Below, one piece after another: positions 292 to 26,000 of a DNA stretch of 29,075 nucleotides. This DNA comes from a virus. A program made the translations under genes and the position numbers. The DNA is taken from IMG/VR virus record IMGVR_UViG_3300044491_001697, positions 1 to 29,075 of that record. One strand, written 5' to 3'. The first letter of the stretch is position 1; each line of letters begins with the position of its first letter. The notes under the pieces were generated by a model that ran no database searches, was not told where the DNA came from, and saw only the letters and a list, made by a program, of their open reading frames with translations.

Positions 292-383
292 TGGCGGATA
301 GGGAGGGATTCGAACCCTCGGTACACAGTAATGTGTACGGCGGATTAGCAATCCACTGGTTTAAGCCACTCACCCACCTATCC
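292..383 (-). tRNA. tRNA-Ser(GCU)
   Basis: The minus strand folds into a complete class II tRNA. The 7-bp acceptor is GGATAGG/CCTATCC with discriminator G and an encoded CCA (294-292). The anticodon loop is TTGCTAA, giving anticodon GCU for AGC/AGU serine codons. The long variable arm has a perfect 7-bp stem (GTACACA/TGTGTAC), as expected for serine. The T-arm GAGGG-TTCGAAT-CCCTC pairs perfectly. It sits between tRNA-Arg(UCU) and the DUF2693-like gene. Confidence 0.96.
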
Positions 384-391
384 TTGTGTTT

Positions 392-466
<75 letters not shown>

Positions 467-478
467 AGACTGGTTCAA

Positions 479-701: not shown

Positions 702-729
702 AATATAACACATACAGTTGATGTGTCAA
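702..729 (-). promoter_or_regulatory. Early-type sigma70-like promoter P1
   Basis: TTGACA (729-724), 16-bp spacer, TATATT (707-702) on the minus strand, reading into the gene at 670 and the tRNAs. It shares GGTTGACA and the spacer end TGTGT with the promoters at 3523, 3964 and 7981. It lies directly downstream of the tRNA-like sequence and an A-run. Confidence 0.8.
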
Positions 730-739
730 CCTTTTTTTT

Positions 740-816
740 TGGCCTGCCCGCTGAGATTCGAACTGCTGACCCTCAGTTTCGTAGACTGATCATCTATCCA
801 GTTCTGCCACGGAGAG
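740..816 (-). tRNA. tRNA-Arg(ACG)-like sequence, probably degenerate
   Basis: The anticodon arm TCAGT-CTACGAA-ACTGA is perfect (anticodon ACG). The D-loop-like AACTGGATA, T-loop TTCGAAT and a 3' CCA (742-740) are all present, at normal tRNA spacing (77 nt). The other stems fail: D-stem GCAG/GATG does not pair, T-stem AGCAG/CTCAG keeps only two pairs, and acceptor CTCTCCG/CGGGCAG has a C-C mismatch. The stop codon of the gene at 794-1366 lies in its D-loop. It is either a decaying tRNA or a fragment of a host tRNA-Arg; function is doubtful. Confidence 0.55.
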
Positions 817-1366
817 ATTCTATTATACGTCTTTGTGTGGCCAGTTTTTCCTGTTTGTAGTTGATCTCAACACCATCACGTGGTGTATGTTCACCCGGTG
901 TAAACACCATGTCCAGTGCTTCACTGGGTATCCATGCTTCTATGCCATCTGGCACTGCCACCAAGTAGGGTTTGATGTCCTCACCTGTGATTATGCCTAT
1001 TGCATCCTGTTGTCCAATCACATACCAATCTGCAGGCGTTTCAATGTGAGTACCCTTGTGTGTGCCCAGACTGTTTTTCAGTTTAACTTTCACACGTGCC
1101 TTCAGTCGCTTGCCTTTGGCAGTGTACATGCCATCTGCCACATACTTGAACTCTAGTGTATAGTTGTGTACAGTATCAATGTGATCAACACCTACATCAT
1201 CCACATACTTGAGCCTTCCATCTGTGTACACTTCTAGACTCTGTTCTATGATGTCACTTTTGTCAAATCGGTCTTTCCTGTTGTTGAGTTGATCACCTAA
1301 TGCATGAACCAAGTCAATATAACTGTGCCAATCCAAACAGTCACGTAATTCTTGACTATACTTCAT
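794..1366 (-). CDS. hypothetical phage protein, 190 aa
   Basis: ATG at 1366 with GAGG seven bases upstream, overlapping the end of the SWIM gene by 11 bp. No family recognised. The middle is beta-rich (VDHIDTVHNYTLEFKYV, then a basic stretch KGKRLKARVKVKLKN). The C-terminal half has a compact fold-like segment (DWYVIGQQDAIGIITGEDIK, then PYLVAVPDGIEAWIPSEAL) and a basic helical tail ending ESLRGRTG. A D...ExK arrangement (VDH...LEFK) could suggest a PD-(D/E)XK nuclease, but this is weak. Its TAG stop falls inside the degenerate tRNA at 740-816, so the C-terminus may have been shaped by that sequence. Confidence 0.75.
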   Translation of the reverse strand: MKYSQELRDCLDWHSYIDLVHALGDQLNNRKDRFDKSDIIEQSLEVYTDGRLKYVDDVGVDHIDTVHNYTLEFKYVADGMYTAKGKRLKARVKVKLKNSLGTHKGTHIETPADWYVIGQQDAIGIITGEDIKPYLVAVPDGIEAWIPSEALDMVFTPGEHTPRDGVEINYKQEKLATQRRIIESLRGRTG

Positions 1367-1599: not shown

Positions 1600-2364
1600 C
1601 TATAAATCATCGATCCTACGTCGATAACTGGCAGTGTTTACACCCAAGCCTTCACCACCTAGGAAAAAGTCATATGCAAGTTTATCCATTTTGGCTCGAG
1701 TGTTTAGGTTTCCAAAACGTAGTCGGTTTTCCCAATATATTCTCTTCTTTGCACTCATTGGTCTTGAACTGACTGTGGGTTTACATCTGTCCAATATCTG
1801 CATGAATAACTGTTTCTTTTGTTCCAGTGAGTGGGCACTGACAATAGCATCTATATCCTGTTTAGTAAAGTTAACATCATGTTTTTCTACTCTGCTTGGA
1901 CCTTGCAGTAACACACAACGATCTCGATGAAAAACATTCATGGTTTCGCCATGACTGTTGTTTAACTGCATACTCCAATTGGGTTTTTTTGTGCAATCTA
2001 TCAAATGAAAATCATCACCTAAACTCTCATGGTAGAACACCAAGAACACACGTTCCTTGAGTTTGTTTGCAAAAGGCACATAACTTTTCTGTAGTTTCTC
2101 ATCTACACTGTAACCAACTGCACCATCAGGACGTACATTATACAGTTTGGCTTTACGTTTACATTCAAACCATGTTCTCTTGCCATCAGGTGCCACAGCC
2201 ACTACATCTGGTATAGCATGATTGTCATCATCTCTGTACACACTTTTGCCAAACATATTTGGGCCTCGACCTATGGTGTACTTGGGATATTTGGCTTCGA
2301 GATAACTGATGAACTTTGCTTCTAGTTCTGCACCAAACTTTTCCTGTGTTGCAAAATTAGTCAT
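1600..2364 (-). CDS. PD-(D/E)XK nuclease-like protein
   Basis: 254 residues from the ATG at 2364. I chose this start because AGGAAC precedes it and it gives a short 8-bp overlap with the ligase stop; longer forms from ATG 2382 or TTG 2388 are open but lack a good Shine-Dalgarno. Residues 51-69 (IPDVVAVAPDGKRTWFECK) show the nuclease core: D53, then E67-x-K69 on the next strand, with a conserved-looking E in the first helix (GAELEAKFISYLEAKYP). Candidate roles are DNA repair, recombination or host-DNA degradation. The C-terminal part is helical and basic (SAKKRIYWENRLRFGNLNTR) and may bind DNA. Adjacency to DNA ligase supports a DNA-processing role. The specific nuclease family is not recognised. 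Confidence 0.8.
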   Translation of the reverse strand: MTNFATQEKFGAELEAKFISYLEAKYPKYTIGRGPNMFGKSVYRDDDNHAIPDVVAVAPDGKRTWFECKRKAKLYNVRPDGAVGYSVDEKLQKSYVPFANKLKERVFLVFYHESLGDDFHLIDCTKKPNWSMQLNNSHGETMNVFHRDRCVLLQGPSRVEKHDVNFTKQDIDAIVSAHSLEQKKQLFMQILDRCKPTVSSRPMSAKKRIYWENRLRFGNLNTRAKMDKLAYDFFLGGEGLGVNTASYRRRIDDL

Positions 2365-4145: not shown

Positions 4146-4804
4146 TCACGTTTCCAAACATGATCATATTCACAGTCTCTCATGTTTTCGAACCAAGGAC
4201 CACCTTCTGTGTAGTGTAATATCTTTGGAGTACCATCTATACCTTCTTGGTAGTGTCCTACCAGCCAGTTCCATTCTGGAGTTAGTTCACCTATTTCGTC
4301 ATCTTCTAACCATGAGAATCTATGCAACCATTGTCCTGTTTGTGAGTTAACTGTGTCTAGATCTAGTGCTTGGTTTTTAGGATGTTCGCAGTTAAACAAA
4401 ACCATACTGCTCCAATTTTTACGTGGATATGGCAGTTGTAATTGTCCATCCATCTTTGTGCCCTCTGGTGGTGTGTAATCATGTTTAACAACATAAACTG
4501 CTTTACTGTCATCTTTGTCTTTGAAAAGATCCCAAGCATCACACAACCACACCATATCACAATCACAGAACACTGCCCATCCTTTGTATTCATTTAGATG
4601 TGGTACTAGGAATCTTGTGAAAGTAAATTCTGTACTTGCTAGTTTGTCTACGTCTCTCCAGTACAGTTTTTCATCTCGTAATTCGTTTTGTTTTAAAGGT
4701 TGTACTGAAACAGAGTCTCGACGTGTGCGTCTTAGTATACTGTGTTCGCACACTTGATATGCAATATCTTCTCTGCTATCCCACCCGACATAAATATTAT
4801 TCAT
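4121..4804 (-). CDS. GT-A glycosyltransferase (GT8-like)
   Basis: 227 residues. The N-terminus NNIYVGWDSREDIAYQVCEH is the nucleotide-binding strand of a GT8-like fold. FTFTRFLVPHL precedes the metal-binding DxD at residues 81-83 (FCDCDMVWLCD), and the acceptor side shows NWSSMVLFNC and PKILHYTEGGPW. Such enzymes transfer a sugar from a nucleotide donor in the cytoplasm. Donor and acceptor are not predictable. It is divergent from the nucleotidyltransferase-cupin gene at 4879 and overlaps the deaminase remnant at its 3' end, marking the left edge of the glycan module. A T4-late-like TAATAAATA lies about 30 bp upstream. Confidence 0.87.
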   Translation of the reverse strand: MNNIYVGWDSREDIAYQVCEHSILRRTRRDSVSVQPLKQNELRDEKLYWRDVDKLASTEFTFTRFLVPHLNEYKGWAVFCDCDMVWLCDAWDLFKDKDDSKAVYVVKHDYTPPEGTKMDGQLQLPYPRKNWSSMVLFNCEHPKNQALDLDTVNSQTGQWLHRFSWLEDDEIGELTPEWNWLVGHYQEGIDGTPKILHYTEGGPWFENMRDCEYDHVWKREVINLYSN

Positions 4805-4829
4805 TAGTTATATACCTATATAATTATTT
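4805..4829 (-). repeat. 25-bp element, copy 1 (23/25 identical to 22608-22632)
   Basis: On the minus strand this reads AAATAATTATATAGGTATAT-AACTA and ends immediately before the ATG at 4804. The second copy, on the plus strand at 22608-22632, precedes the gene at 22663. A shorter relative (TATACGTATAGTTAG) occurs in the leader after P5. It is probably a shared leader or promoter element. Confidence 0.6.
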
Positions 4830-4833
4830 CAAG

Positions 4834-4842
4834 TATTTATTA
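4834..4842 (-). promoter_or_regulatory. T4-late-like -10 element upstream of the gene at 4121
   Basis: TAATAAATA followed by CTTG on the minus strand, about 30 bp before the ATG at 4804. T4 late promoters consist essentially of TATAAATA at -10, so this is a plausible late start site for the glycan genes. A single short motif in AT-rich DNA is weak evidence. Confidence 0.45.
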
Positions 4843-4878
4843 ACATGTAACATACCTTGTGTACATAATGGAGAAACA

Positions 4879-5661
4879 ATGACTACTTTAGTTTTGGTGA
4901 CAGGAGGTTTTGATCCTCTGCATAGTGGACACATAGAATATTTCAAAGCGGCAAAAAAACTAGGTGACAAGTTAGTAGTTGGCGTTAACAGTGACGCATG
5001 GCTGATACGTAAAAAAGGTAAACCTTTTATGCCTTGGACCGAACGTTGTGCTATTATTGAAAACTTGTCAATGGTTGATCAAGTGATTGATGTAATGAAT
5101 GATGACCGGTTTGATGATGCAGGCGGAGCCATTTTTAAATTATTGTCAACAAATAATAGTAATGTTGATATAGTATTTGCCAATGGTGGTGATAGGAAAC
5201 AAGGTAATGTACCTGAAGAAGTTACATATGGAGATTACCAAAATGTAAGTTTTGTTTATGGTGTAGGTGGTGAAAACAAACAGAACAGTAGCAGTTGGAT
5301 ACTAAAAGATTGGTCTGTTCCAAAAGTAGAAAGAGAATGGGGTCATTACAGAAATTTGTACAAAGGCAATGGCTTTATGGTAAAAGAATTAGTAATTAAT
5401 CCACACAGTAGTTTAAGTATGCAAAAGCATCAACACAGAAGCGAAACATGGAATCTTGTGAGTGGTACCGCACATGTATTGATCAGCAACCGAACTATAC
5501 CACAGGATTGTGCCAGGTATAATCTCACTCCTCCTAATCCAATGGATATTCCACGTGGTACTTGGCACAAAGGATTTAACAACAGTGATCAGCCTGCACA
5601 CATAGTTGAGGTGTGGAAAGGTGATATCTTAACTGAAGAAGATATAGAACGTTATGATTGA
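4879..5661 (+). CDS. bifunctional nucleotidylyltransferase - cupin (PMI type II) fusion
   Basis: 260 residues from ATG 4879 (GGAG eight bases upstream; longer open sequence to the left lies inside the divergent gene). Residues 1-130 form a cytidylyltransferase-type nucleotidyltransferase: GGFDPLHSGH with the HxGH signature at 15-18, WTERCAIIENL, and NSSSWILKDW as the ISSSxxL counterpart. From about 135, WGHYRNLYKGNGFMVKELVI and SMQKHQHRSETWNLVSGTAH match the cupin of type II phosphomannose isomerase/ManC proteins (QxHxHRxExW). It probably activates a sugar or polyol phosphate with a nucleotide and isomerises or binds a related sugar. The HxGH-type domain fused to a ManC-type cupin is unusual. 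The next gene overlaps by 8 bp. Confidence 0.88.
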   Translation: MTTLVLVTGGFDPLHSGHIEYFKAAKKLGDKLVVGVNSDAWLIRKKGKPFMPWTERCAIIENLSMVDQVIDVMNDDRFDDAGGAIFKLLSTNNSNVDIVFANGGDRKQGNVPEEVTYGDYQNVSFVYGVGGENKQNSSSWILKDWSVPKVEREWGHYRNLYKGNGFMVKELVINPHSSLSMQKHQHRSETWNLVSGTAHVLISNRTIPQDCARYNLTPPNPMDIPRGTWHKGFNNSDQPAHIVEVWKGDILTEEDIERYD

Positions 5662-17664: not shown

Positions 17665-18466
17665 TTGTATGATCTTTCTGTCTTACATCTATATTGTCTG
17701 CACTATACTCGCCTTTAAGTTCATCAACAATATCGTTTACATAACGTCCTTGAAATGGAATTTGAAATGGTGCGTCTTTGGTTTTTGTGTATGCAGTTAC
17801 TATACTTACGTTATGTGCTTTACCATCTCTATTGTGTAGTTCATCATATGAACGTTCTAATTCACTAAGTGGTGCACGTGGCTTCTTTTGTTCATAGTGT
17901 GTCCAACTATCTATTGCAGTGGGACAATCTATATACTTGCCTGTGTTTTGTGCAAGCCACATAAAACGCCATTTATATCCGTTAGCGGCGGCTATGTCTC
18001 TGAACAATCCTGGATGAAAACTATAGAAGCAATGATTAAACCATGGAGCAAAAGGTAGAACATTTATCATTGTACCACCTACACGACATAAATTATGCAT
18101 GTTTTCAAACACAGTACGTTGATCAAATATGTGTTCACCTGTTCCATTGTTTGTTACATAGTCAAATTGTGTTGTGTAATTGTATTTGTCTTTTAGTATA
18201 AAGTTTAAATCCATTGCTATACTACGTAGTTCTGTGTTTATATCTATAGCAAGGTAATCACTAAACCCAAGATCTTCAAAGTATTCCCATACATACTGTG
18301 TAGGTTTACGCAGTGTACGACTACATGTTTGTTCACATTTGTTTAACCAATCTTCACTGTATCTAAAACGTTGATTACCCCATTCAACTACAGTTGCTCC
18401 TGTAGGAAACACATTTTGTTTTACAAGTGTTGCAGTTGCTAACTGCATTATATTATTGAACGCCAT
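17651..18466 (-). CDS. class I SAM methyltransferase-like protein
   Basis: 271 residues. ATVVEWGNQRFRYSEDW stands where motif I would be, DYLAIDINTELRSIAMDLNF supplies the acidic end of strand two, and FDYVTNNGTGEHIFDQRTVF, then CRVGGTMINVLPFAPWFNHC give the strand 4-5 region of Methyltransf_11-like enzymes. Motif I is degenerate (EWGNQ rather than GxGxG), so cofactor binding is uncertain. HPGLFRDIAAANGYKW is characteristic of methyltransferases in polysaccharide loci. The gene overlaps the radical SAM gene by 14 bp. Confidence 0.72.
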   Translation of the reverse strand: MAFNNIMQLATATLVKQNVFPTGATVVEWGNQRFRYSEDWLNKCEQTCSRTLRKPTQYVWEYFEDLGFSDYLAIDINTELRSIAMDLNFILKDKYNYTTQFDYVTNNGTGEHIFDQRTVFENMHNLCRVGGTMINVLPFAPWFNHCFYSFHPGLFRDIAAANGYKWRFMWLAQNTGKYIDCPTAIDSWTHYEQKKPRAPLSELERSYDELHNRDGKAHNVSIVTAYTKTKDAPFQIPFQGRYVNDIVDELKGEYSADNIDVRQKDHTSATY

Positions 18467-19583
18467 CTATCATTGCTCCTATATCTGGAAAAGTTTGTTT
18501 GAAACTTATTCCTCTGTAATTATCATGCTTATTTGTAAAGTCCAAAAACTTATCAAATAACTTACTATCGTTGTTTTTTTGTAAAAACTTTACCCAATTA
18601 TTAAAAAACTTTGTTTTACTTAATTTGTCTATTATTTTTTCATTAATGTTTTTTGGATAAATTGTTGGTTGTAAATGAAAAGGTTCATGCACAGGACCAC
18701 AATATGGTCTTCCTAGTCCTATACGCAAACACCAAATATAAAAATCATCTAAGTAAAAAATATTGTAGGCACTTAAAGTATGACTAACAGATAATTTTAA
18801 ATTAGGCACAACTTTTTTATATTCTACATATTTTTTAGCATTTGTTTCTAGTGTATTCCAATCTGCAGGAAAACGTATGTATTCATATTGTTGTTCTACA
18901 CCATCAACGCTTAATTGTATATCGACTTGTTTAAATTTAGTCCACAGTAACCACCATTCATCATCTGGGAATAACTGTGCGTTTGTGGTGTAATGCAACG
19001 ACATATGTTTAGAATTACCACTGTCTATATATTTTTGCAAAAGACTTTTTTGGATTTTTGTCATACTTAAAAAAGGTTCACCACCTGGAATATCTAAATG
19101 TATTGCGTGTGGCATTTTGTCATAAATTTTTTGTGAAAATTCTTCATCTAGATGCTCTAAACTTTTGGTATCGATATTGTATACATCTTTATATTCTTTC
19201 CGCCATTTACTACTTGCACCAGGGCCACACATTATACATTTTAATTGGCACGTATTTCCAAAAGCAATACTGCCTGTAATAAATTTCTTATCGTCTTTAT
19301 ATTCTTGGTAATCTTTTTCCCATCTTGTATAATCTAATTGACGTTTACTTTCTATTCCAGATTCCTCATCTAATTTGCAACGTTCACAACCTTTTGGCCA
19401 AACATTGTTTGTAAATTCTTGTTTGACATTTTTTAAAAAATTACTGTTGCTGTATTCTTCTATCAGGGTTTCAGCAACATTAAATTTTTCGTCATAGAGG
19501 CTCATCCTAAACTTACAACAAGGACTGATGTTTCCTAATGGACTGATGTCTATGTTAGTCCATGGTGCCATACATTTGATCAT
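18453..19583 (-). CDS. Twitch-domain radical SAM enzyme 1
   Basis: 376 residues. The core motif GNTCQLKCIMC (C112, C116, C119) is the CX3CX2C ligand set of the SAM-cleaving [4Fe-4S] cluster, and DIPGGEPFL (164-172) is the SAM-binding GGE motif. N-terminal cysteines (C4, C22/C23 in CMAPWTNIDISPLGNISPCC, C66 and C69 in GCERC) form a SPASM/Twitch-like auxiliary-cluster region ahead of the core. LSVDGVEQQYEYIRFP is typical of this family. The reaction is unknown; relatives modify peptides and carbohydrates. TAATG coupling (1-bp overlap) links it to the methyltransferase gene before it. Confidence 0.9.
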   Translation of the reverse strand: MIKCMAPWTNIDISPLGNISPCCKFRMSLYDEKFNVAETLIEEYSNSNFLKNVKQEFTNNVWPKGCERCKLDEESGIESKRQLDYTRWEKDYQEYKDDKKFITGSIAFGNTCQLKCIMCGPGASSKWRKEYKDVYNIDTKSLEHLDEEFSQKIYDKMPHAIHLDIPGGEPFLSMTKIQKSLLQKYIDSGNSKHMSLHYTTNAQLFPDDEWWLLWTKFKQVDIQLSVDGVEQQYEYIRFPADWNTLETNAKKYVEYKKVVPNLKLSVSHTLSAYNIFYLDDFYIWCLRIGLGRPYCGPVHEPFHLQPTIYPKNINEKIIDKLSKTKFFNNWVKFLQKNNDSKLFDKFLDFTNKHDNYRGISFKQTFPDIGAMIDGVQ

Positions 19584-24278: not shown

Positions 24279-24735
24279 CTATTCTAATATCCTCCATACC
24301 TGCAGTTCTCAATCTTACAATATGTCCCATTTGCCATTGTTTTGAATCAAGACCTTTCATAATACCTAACCATTTGTTTCTAAGCAATGCAACTTCGTTA
24401 ATGATAGTTTCGAAGTCAATTACTTCATCTTCACCATCAACATATTTCTCAGCATCTCTACTTGTAAGTGCTCTTTGATATCCCTCCAAATATTTTTGGA
24501 AGTGTTTGCGTCTTGTTTTTCTCAACTGTATATTTAAAAAATTAAGTACTGCTTCAATTTCTTGTAATTGATTAAATCTGCGTTCAGTAATACCAGGTAG
24601 TGCAGAAATATTTTTCTCAAGTATTCCTTTTACTGAACATTCTATTCGTGCATTTTGTAATTCAATTTCGTAGTAACTGATAAATGCAGGAATATTAGAT
24701 AAATCTTGAGTTACTTTTCCGTACCATTGTGCCAT
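24271..24735 (-). CDS. conserved helical protein of marine T4-like phages
   Basis: 154 residues, nearly all helical, e.g. SALPGITERRFNQLQEIEAV then LNFLNIQLRKTRRKHFQKYL and EGYQRALTSRDAEKYVDGED. I recall a close cyanophage counterpart with the same 'YQRALTSRDxEKYVDGE' and 'LLRNKxLGIxKGL' stretches, near the recombination genes. Its function is not established; size and location would fit a recombination or helicase-loading accessory (UvsY-like), but no sequence similarity to T4 UvsY is evident. It sits between the radical SAM and methyltransferase genes, overlapping both. Confidence 0.75.
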   Translation of the reverse strand: MAQWYGKVTQDLSNIPAFISYYEIELQNARIECSVKGILEKNISALPGITERRFNQLQEIEAVLNFLNIQLRKTRRKHFQKYLEGYQRALTSRDAEKYVDGEDEVIDFETIINEVALLRNKWLGIMKGLDSKQWQMGHIVRLRTAGMEDIRIDD

Positions 24736-26000
24736 TATTTTATTTTACTTTCATCTACTAATTTTGTCAACCATGGAAATGTTTTCCGCCAATTTAGGTT
24801 TCTACGTCTATCTATTTCATCTAACAACACACCTAGTTTTTTTATTTCTTTGTAATCTCTAGATTGATTGTTGTATTTTCTTTGTAGTCCTTGCATGTAA
24901 CCAAGCATCTGTTGATTTTGCCAATCTTCATCATAGGCTTCCATTTCTTTGTAAATTTTGTCAAAATCTTTATCAAAAAATCCTTTACCAAATATACCAG
25001 GACGCAAACAACTATGACTAAACACAACTTCGCCAAAACTGTGTGCTATAGGTCGTTTGTATTTCTTTCTCAGTCTTGCTACATATTTTATTACATCTGG
25101 TGCAGTTTTAATTGTAAGTCCTGTATGTGTTTGATTAAAGTTTAAGTATATCCAACGTTGGCTAGCCAAGTATTCAAAGTTTTCCTTAAATTGTTTTAAG
25201 TTGATGCCATATCTTACATATTCTTGAGGTTTACCAAAGCAATCAATACTAGCCATTACATCTAATCTTTTGATTTTTTTAGTTGCAATTAAATTTTTTA
25301 TCTGTTCTATTTGTGTAACAAACTTATTGTGTGCAACTGTTAGGTTAGATACTATGGTAAATTCTAATTGTGGACTGGGATGATTTTCAAAAAATTTCAA
25401 CAGCCTATTGAACTGTGCTTGATAAAATGGTTCACCACCTAAAAAATGAAACTGTTTTAGAGTAGAATGATTTTTTGCTAACCAATCAAAAAACTTGTCT
25501 GTTATTTCACCTAGTTTGTCAACTTTTGTTGCAAAGTTATCTAGTACAACATCATCTTTTTCGAATCTTCCAAATCGCCTATTTTCTGCTTGTATCTTAC
25601 TGCTAAATCCGTCCCAACAATACAAGCAACTTAAATTACATGTGTTGTCAAAGTAAACTTCAACAATAGTTGGATTTACCGTTGTGGCAGTAGGATCTTT
25701 GTCCAGTTCTAAAGGATATTGATTGGGTATACTAGATTGATACATTCTATCACTAGTACCACCTGCATCTTCTATGTGTTTGCAGTACTCACACCCACGT
25801 CCTGGCCATTCACCAGAAAGCATTTTCTTTCTATCATTAATTTTATTTTCAGTGTTATGAAAATTATCAAAATCATCAACAGAAAGGAAATCTTTTTCTA
25901 TTCTATGGCAACTACTGGTGCTACCTTCATATAGTCTGATTGTGCTCCATGCCCATTTGAGTTGACATGCAGGTTTGGTTTTTATCGGAAAGTAATTCAA
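24735..26000 (-). CDS. Twitch-domain radical SAM enzyme 2
   Basis: 421 residues from a TTG at 26000; no ATG precedes the conserved cysteines and the ribosome site is weak. The core CNLSCLYC (C121, C125, C128) and FHFLGGEPFYQ (about 185-195) mark a radical SAM enzyme. Upstream cysteines C12, C31, C70 and C73 (GRGCEYCKHIEDAG) repeat the pattern of enzyme 1 and probably bind an auxiliary cluster. It is inserted between core phage genes: the small acidic gene after uvsX and the conserved helical gene. TAATG coupling downstream. Reaction unknown. Confidence 0.88.
   Translation of the reverse strand: MNYFPIKTKPACQLKWAWSTIRLYEGSTSSCHRIEKDFLSVDDFDNFHNTENKINDRKKMLSGEWPGRGCEYCKHIEDAGGTSDRMYQSSIPNQYPLELDKDPTATTVNPTIVEVYFDNTCNLSCLYCWDGFSSKIQAENRRFGRFEKDDVVLDNFATKVDKLGEITDKFFDWLAKNHSTLKQFHFLGGEPFYQAQFNRLLKFFENHPSPQLEFTIVSNLTVAHNKFVTQIEQIKNLIATKKIKRLDVMASIDCFGKPQEYVRYGINLKQFKENFEYLASQRWIYLNFNQTHTGLTIKTAPDVIKYVARLRKKYKRPIAHSFGEVVFSHSCLRPGIFGKGFFDKDFDKIYKEMEAYDEDWQNQQMLGYMQGLQRKYNNQSRDYKEIKKLGVLLDEIDRRRNLNWRKTFPWLTKLVDESKIK

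Follow-up and report, generated by a model that had tools for sequence, protein, structure and literature searches.

The tRNA-like element and the genes around it

The stretch of DNA analysed here, a 29,075-nt virus record hereafter called the window, encodes UvsX and an ssDNA-binding protein. A degenerate tRNA-Arg(ACG) is found on its minus strand together with a 190-aa ORF, two called tRNA genes and a match to a promoter consensus (Table 1). The degenerate tRNA, referred to below as the element, is read from 816 to 740 and comprises 77 nt with anticodon ACG, a G discriminator and an encoded CCA.

Table 1. Coordinates of the element and neighbouring features in the window.
Feature	Coordinates	Strand	Details
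Degenerate tRNA-Arg(ACG)	740..816	-	Pairs formed: acceptor 6/7, D-stem 0/4, anticodon stem 5/5, T-stem 2/5; G73; encoded CCA (742-740)
190-aa ORF	794..1366	-	Read from tRNA-like sequence from codon 184 position 2 to the TAG; tail S-L-R-G-R-T-G-stop
ORF/tRNA overlap	794..816	-	tRNA positions 1-22: acceptor 5' strand, D-stem 5' strand, D-loop
tRNA-Arg(tct)	392..470	-	ARAGORN; Rfam 42.6 bits; two T-stem pairs broken
tRNA-Ser(gct)	292..383	-	ARAGORN; intact; Rfam 55.7 bits
Sigma-70-like promoter match	702..729	-	TTGACA-16-TATATT, 11/12, TG before the second hexamer (consensus match only)

The 5' end of the element is shared with the 190-aa ORF. Base 816, the first base of the tRNA, is position 2 of codon 184, and the final codons of the ORF read TCT CTC CGT GGC AGA ACT GGA TAG. 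The TAG occupies tRNA positions 20a-21-22, in the D-loop (GGATAG). The protein gene takes its tail and its stop codon from tRNA sequence; a first-pass annotation of this DNA had stated that the 5' part of the element encodes the last residues and TAG of the gene, and the mapping of codons onto tRNA bases bears this out. Relatives of the 190-aa protein were found at 13 IMG/VR loci, 12 of which include the C-terminus (L013 is cut). In all 12, the protein ends at its own stop no more than a few residues from where the tRNA starts in the window, and none has an RGRTG-like tail, indicating that the window is the exception, with the end of the gene replaced by tRNA sequence. ARAGORN called no tRNA directly 3' of the homologue at any of the 13 loci. 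The 190-aa protein itself gave no Pfam match above cut-off, no PHROG and no relative among named phages. At L002, L003, L010 and L011, the ORF next to the homologue has, by eye, a TDPPYG-type DNA methyltransferase motif, and this neighbour hints at a link to restriction-modification or DNA modification. Querying the literature for overlaps between phage genes and tRNA genes turned up no paper matching all five query terms, which is not proof that such overlaps are unreported.

The sigma-70-like match adjoins the CCA of the element and an A-run. Judged from sequence, this candidate promoter would serve the genes downstream of it, namely a 63-aa ORF and the called tRNAs. The Arg(tct) gene has a 7-bp acceptor and lacks positions 8-9; its broken T-stem pairs are G49-G65 and A51-G63, which may mark the onset of decay in a second Arg tRNA of the window. 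Two Rfam families of plastid UTR elements, RF04351 and RF04354, match the antisense of the called tRNA genes (295-348 and 394-466, plus strand) below their cut-offs and look like antisense-tRNA models. At the sensitivity used, no relatives of the neighbouring 63-aa and 252-aa proteins were found in IMG/VR. The 252-aa protein (1600-2358, minus strand) has no Pfam match above cut-off and contains, by eye, a PD...ECK-like motif (PDVVAV...WFECKRK). Inspection by eye of the translations at 4636-5661, 18453-19583 and 24735-26000 suggests a nucleotidyltransferase fused to a cupin-like portion and two proteins bearing a radical-SAM-like CxxxCxxC, all set in an extended series of sugar- and methyltransferase-like genes.

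Homology to tRNA-Arg(ACG) and loss of the cloverleaf

A covariance model was built from 8 intact 77-nt tRNA-Arg(ACG) genes, 5 from bacterial replicons and 3 from phages, and run across the whole window with filters off. It matched the element without gaps over positions 1-77 of 77, at 41.0 bits and an only roughly calibrated E of 3.4e-9; the top non-tRNA match in the window scored 6.3 bits. Chance similarity to a tRNA is ruled out at this E value. A sequence-only model gave 43.9 bits (E 1.9e-12), and blastn aligned the element with Rhizobiaceae tRNA-Arg(ACG) (Sinorhizobium, Shinella) at 80.3% over 66 nt (E 2e-7). The Arg(ACG) model and blastn matches together indicate that the element descends from a tRNA-Arg gene, and its full-length homology and anticodon make it a tRNA-Arg(ACG) by descent. 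It is identical to the Sinorhizobium gene at 57/77 positions, including G73, and differs at 20.

Breaks in pairing affect 8/21 stem pairs of the element: all four in the D-stem, three of the five in the T-stem and acceptor pair 3-70 (C-C). Pairs 1-72, 2-71, 27-43 and 31-39 have changed on both sides relative to the Sinorhizobium gene and still pair. The first-pass annotation had described a tRNA-Arg(ACG)-like sequence with a perfect anticodon arm, canonical D- and T-loop bases and CCA, whose D-stem, T-stem and acceptor no longer pair. Much of this observation holds. The tRNA likeness at 740-816 is real and lies on the minus strand, which had been left unstated, the loop bases and CCA are as described, and the anticodon arm (UCAGU-CUACGAA-ACUGA) is fully paired. 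The overlap with the stop codon and the loss of the D- and T-stems also stand, but the claim of acceptor loss was wrong, as that stem keeps all but one of its pairs.

The generic Rfam tRNA model (RF00005) gave the element 17.4 bits against a cut-off of 29. Its parse is gapped, with one deletion in the D-stem and one insertion in the T-stem, and rescues some D and T pairs which the Arg-specific alignment does not. Since more pairs survive in this parse, the statement of stem loss is partly alignment-dependent. ARAGORN, run on the window, missed the element and called only the Ser(gct) and Arg(tct) genes. When constrained to a cloverleaf, the element has an energy of +5.2 kcal/mol, compared with -23.5 to -29.6 kcal/mol for 8 intact genes. 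Covariance scoring had been proposed in the first-pass annotation as a check on degeneracy, and it places the element below functional tRNAs with both models: 17.4 Rfam bits where the Ser(gct) and Arg(tct) genes of the window reach 55.7 and 42.6, and 41.0 bits from the Arg(ACG) model versus 65.7-78.9 for 4 phage Arg(ACG) genes outside the training set. Neither by score nor by a paired cloverleaf does the element qualify as a functional tRNA under RF00005. With tRNA homology, a lost secondary structure and a phage genome around it, it belongs with the phage pseudo-tRNAs.

We also compared what structure contributes to the score. Adding structure to the model changed the score of the element by -3 bits (43.9 to 41.0). 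For 7 Arg tRNAs outside the training set, structure added 33-45 bits (sequence-only to structural: L093, 48.5 to 82.6; L146, 44.8 to 78.9; L144 (tcg), 42.1 to 78.2; L095, 41.7 to 74.3; L094, 35.1 to 71.1; L144 (4234), 33.4 to 68.4; L144 (581), 20.8 to 65.7), and for the Arg(tct) of the window it added about 24 bits (32.2 to 56.0). The sequence score of the element is on par with functional Arg tRNAs whilst its structure score is that of no tRNA. This comparison offers an easy means of distinguishing tRNAs that have died from those that have diverged but still work.

The minimum-energy fold of the element is a rod of -20.2 kcal/mol with a 6-bp D-loop/T-loop helix. This helix arises in 0.02-0.06% of simulated decays but was picked post hoc, and the energy of the rod is matched by 34-44% of simulated decays and by 108/200 shuffles (z 0.16). 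With the helix chosen post hoc and the energy common among simulations and shuffles, the stable alternative fold was given no weight as evidence.

Origin of the element and competing explanations

The element was compared with 186 distinct ARAGORN tRNAs. The closest by global alignment were Arg genes, with three alphaproteobacterial Arg(ACG) first, followed by an Arg(tct) of the phage record containing L008 and then by Melnitz Arg(ACG). One of 178 CCA-bearing tRNAs has the same 3' acceptor strand, CGGGCAG plus G73; it is an Arg(tct) (L167, G025) in the phage record of the closest relative of the 190-aa protein. The nearest tRNAs and the acceptor-strand match thus point to a phage/alphaproteobacterial Arg lineage. 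The alphaproteobacterial likeness fits the top UvsX rows, which are Agrobacterium phage Atu_ph07 and Sinorhizobium phage Phosso. The host is left unnamed, as the phage Arg(tct) is almost as close as the alphaproteobacterial Arg(ACG) genes; E. coli gave no match to the element. No relatives carrying the element were found, and searches of IMG/VR with an exact 28-nt core, a 20-nt 5' pattern and an anticodon-arm pattern returned no match. In the stretches examined, the closest DNA ligase relatives (80-84% identical, L015-L023) have neither the 190-aa gene nor an ARAGORN tRNA.

The reading we favour, with a probability of roughly 0.8, is that a large tailed phage here carries a pseudogene of tRNA-Arg(ACG). 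Gene decay of this sort is commonplace, and similar relics have been described in a number of large phages. A phage/alphaproteobacterial-type Arg tRNA gene would have come to adjoin the 3' end of the 190-aa gene, and substitutions on one side of pairs in the D-stem, in the T-stem and at 3-70 would then have abolished its tRNA function. The tRNA was probably under weak selection, as arginine in this phage is mostly encoded by AGA, which is read by the retained tRNA-Arg(tct). The 30 ORFs of the window contain AGA 200 times, CGT 77, AGG 33, CGA 24, CGC 9 and CGG 6, and with AGA dominant and Arg(tct) retained a CGN-reading tRNA is likely to be less needed. The Ser codons read by Ser(gct) number 264 AGT and 49 AGC in the same ORFs. 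The RNA of the element would be the tail of the 190-aa message, would not fold as a usable tRNA and probably lacks a function. In Atu_ph07 and Phosso, 5/95 Rfam tRNA matches fall below the cut-off, at 18.6-23.9 bits, and tRNA relics are usual in such phages.

Two patterns count against decay. The breaks are uneven, affecting 7/9 D/T pairs versus 1/12 acceptor/anticodon pairs (hypergeometric 0.0022, with the grouping made post hoc). The conserved loop bases are all unchanged, with P of 0.009 for 12 random substitutions and 0.08 when neighbouring changes are treated as 7 events, in a test that is biased by the element having been selected for its loops. Blind decay would usually leave less order than either pattern shows. 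Decay in place is also something we infer and do not see, as no relative found has an intact copy at the site.

The uneven breaks would be explained by a mosaic origin, and also by a kept mimic. In the former, two phage Arg tRNA genes would have recombined within the conserved D- and T-loops, leaving mismatched D- and T-stems and a product dead on arrival. Junctions in the loops predict the pattern of pairing that is seen, with D 0/4 and T 2/5 but acceptor 6/7 and anticodon 5/5, and also in favour of a mosaic are the acceptor strand and G73 matching Arg(tct) L167 and 15 nt of the anticodon arm in common with Felixounavirus Arg(ACG). However, both outer parts fit no single donor (best outer match 23/35), and, in the 3' strand of the D-stem, U24 and G25 run against tRNA rules and are odd whichever gene was the donor. 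An anticodon switch within one Arg lineage would likewise mix signals. We consider a mosaic rather unlikely. A host tRNA fragment serving as an attachment site has in its favour the blastn match to Rhizobiaceae tRNA-Arg(ACG), at 80.3% over 66 nt. Where a tRNA gene serves as an attachment site, one of its ends stays identical over a long block, but here the differences are spread along the full length and the longest run in common with any of the 186 tRNAs is 15 nt, inside the anticodon arm (12 nt with the listed alphaproteobacterial Arg(ccg)). The contiguous block of 30-40 nt identical to a host tRNA, suggested in the first-pass annotation as a check, is found neither among the 186 tRNAs nor through core patterns in the genomes of 84,980 species, with 0 matches both to a 21-nt D-stem/anticodon-loop pattern and to the anticodon-arm pattern (20-21 nt). 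Scanning the ORFs of the 29-kb window by eye revealed no recognisable integrase, in a record that is probably a fragment. An attachment site is barely credible. The same is true of the idea that the tRNA still works in an atypical fold, for which the intact anticodon loop, loop bases and CCA and the D and T pairs rescued in the generic parse are outweighed by the Rfam score below cut-off, the negative ARAGORN result and the positive cloverleaf energy.

A functional RNA needing only the anticodon arm and acceptor could act as a decoy or regulator, for example as a sponge for an anticodon-cutting host nuclease or for the A34-editing enzyme of tRNA-Arg(ACG), or as a tRNA-like piece in the 190-aa message. 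The acceptor and anticodon arm are still paired, the conserved loop bases are all retained, the rod fold provides a 6-bp D-loop/T-loop helix, and excerpts of a report on Bacillus cereus offer a cellular precedent, tRNA-Other (PMC3399842). Against this, the fold is no better than that of shuffles, 34-44% of random decays fold equally well, and the core patterns are absent from IMG/VR. Changes in the anticodon loops of phage tRNAs have been proposed, in excerpts of another paper, to confer insensitivity to nucleases (PMC10264068), but the loop here is the ordinary CUACGAA. We regard such a role as improbable. Even less probable is an armless mimic kept as acceptor and anticodon helices in the rod fold, produced from the 3' end of the message and acting as a lure for an enzyme with affinity for the anticodon arm of tRNA-Arg(ACG).

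The first-pass annotation had offered a decaying gene, a regulatory mimic and an attachment fragment as possible interpretations, and these have fared differently. The first is supported by covariance scores under the functional range, the attachment fragment finds no support given the 15-nt longest run and 0 genome matches, and the mimic gained no positive evidence, with no relative carrying the element and a fold z of 0.16.

Comparison with known tRNAs and tRNA relics

Read as a decayed phage tRNA gene, the element shares isotype, anticodon loop and CCA with the tRNA-Arg(ACG) of Alphaproteobacteria (Sinorhizobium, Methylobacterium, Sphingomonas) and differs in its 8/21 broken pairs. Broken stems also set it apart from phage tRNA-Arg(ACG) (Melnitz, Felixounavirus), with which isotype, anticodon loop and CCA are again the same. 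It is a small but clear example of phage tRNA gene turnover, in which a protein gene takes its last residues and stop from a tRNA relic, although the finding alone raises no large question.

Among cellular relics, tRNA-Other of Bacillus cereus is a recruited pseudo-tRNA which, in the excerpted report, resembles the element in being tRNA-like, non-translational and within a larger transcript (PMC3399842). It has deletion phenotypes whereas none are known for the element. Closer parallels come from phages. Pseudo- or degenerate tRNAs are mentioned, in excerpts of the respective papers, for Klebsiella phage RaK2 (PMC3622015), Erwinia jumbo phages (PMC7760394), XacN1 (PMC5852040), T4-like phages (PMC1524935) and CBA120 (PMC3184105). 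These excerpts do not mention such a relic providing the ending of a neighbouring gene, unlike the element here. As in the window, they describe tRNA relics beside working tRNAs in large phages. Rak2-like phages are also among the nearest to the window by UvsX, and Atu_ph07 is described, in the excerpted text, as closely related to them.
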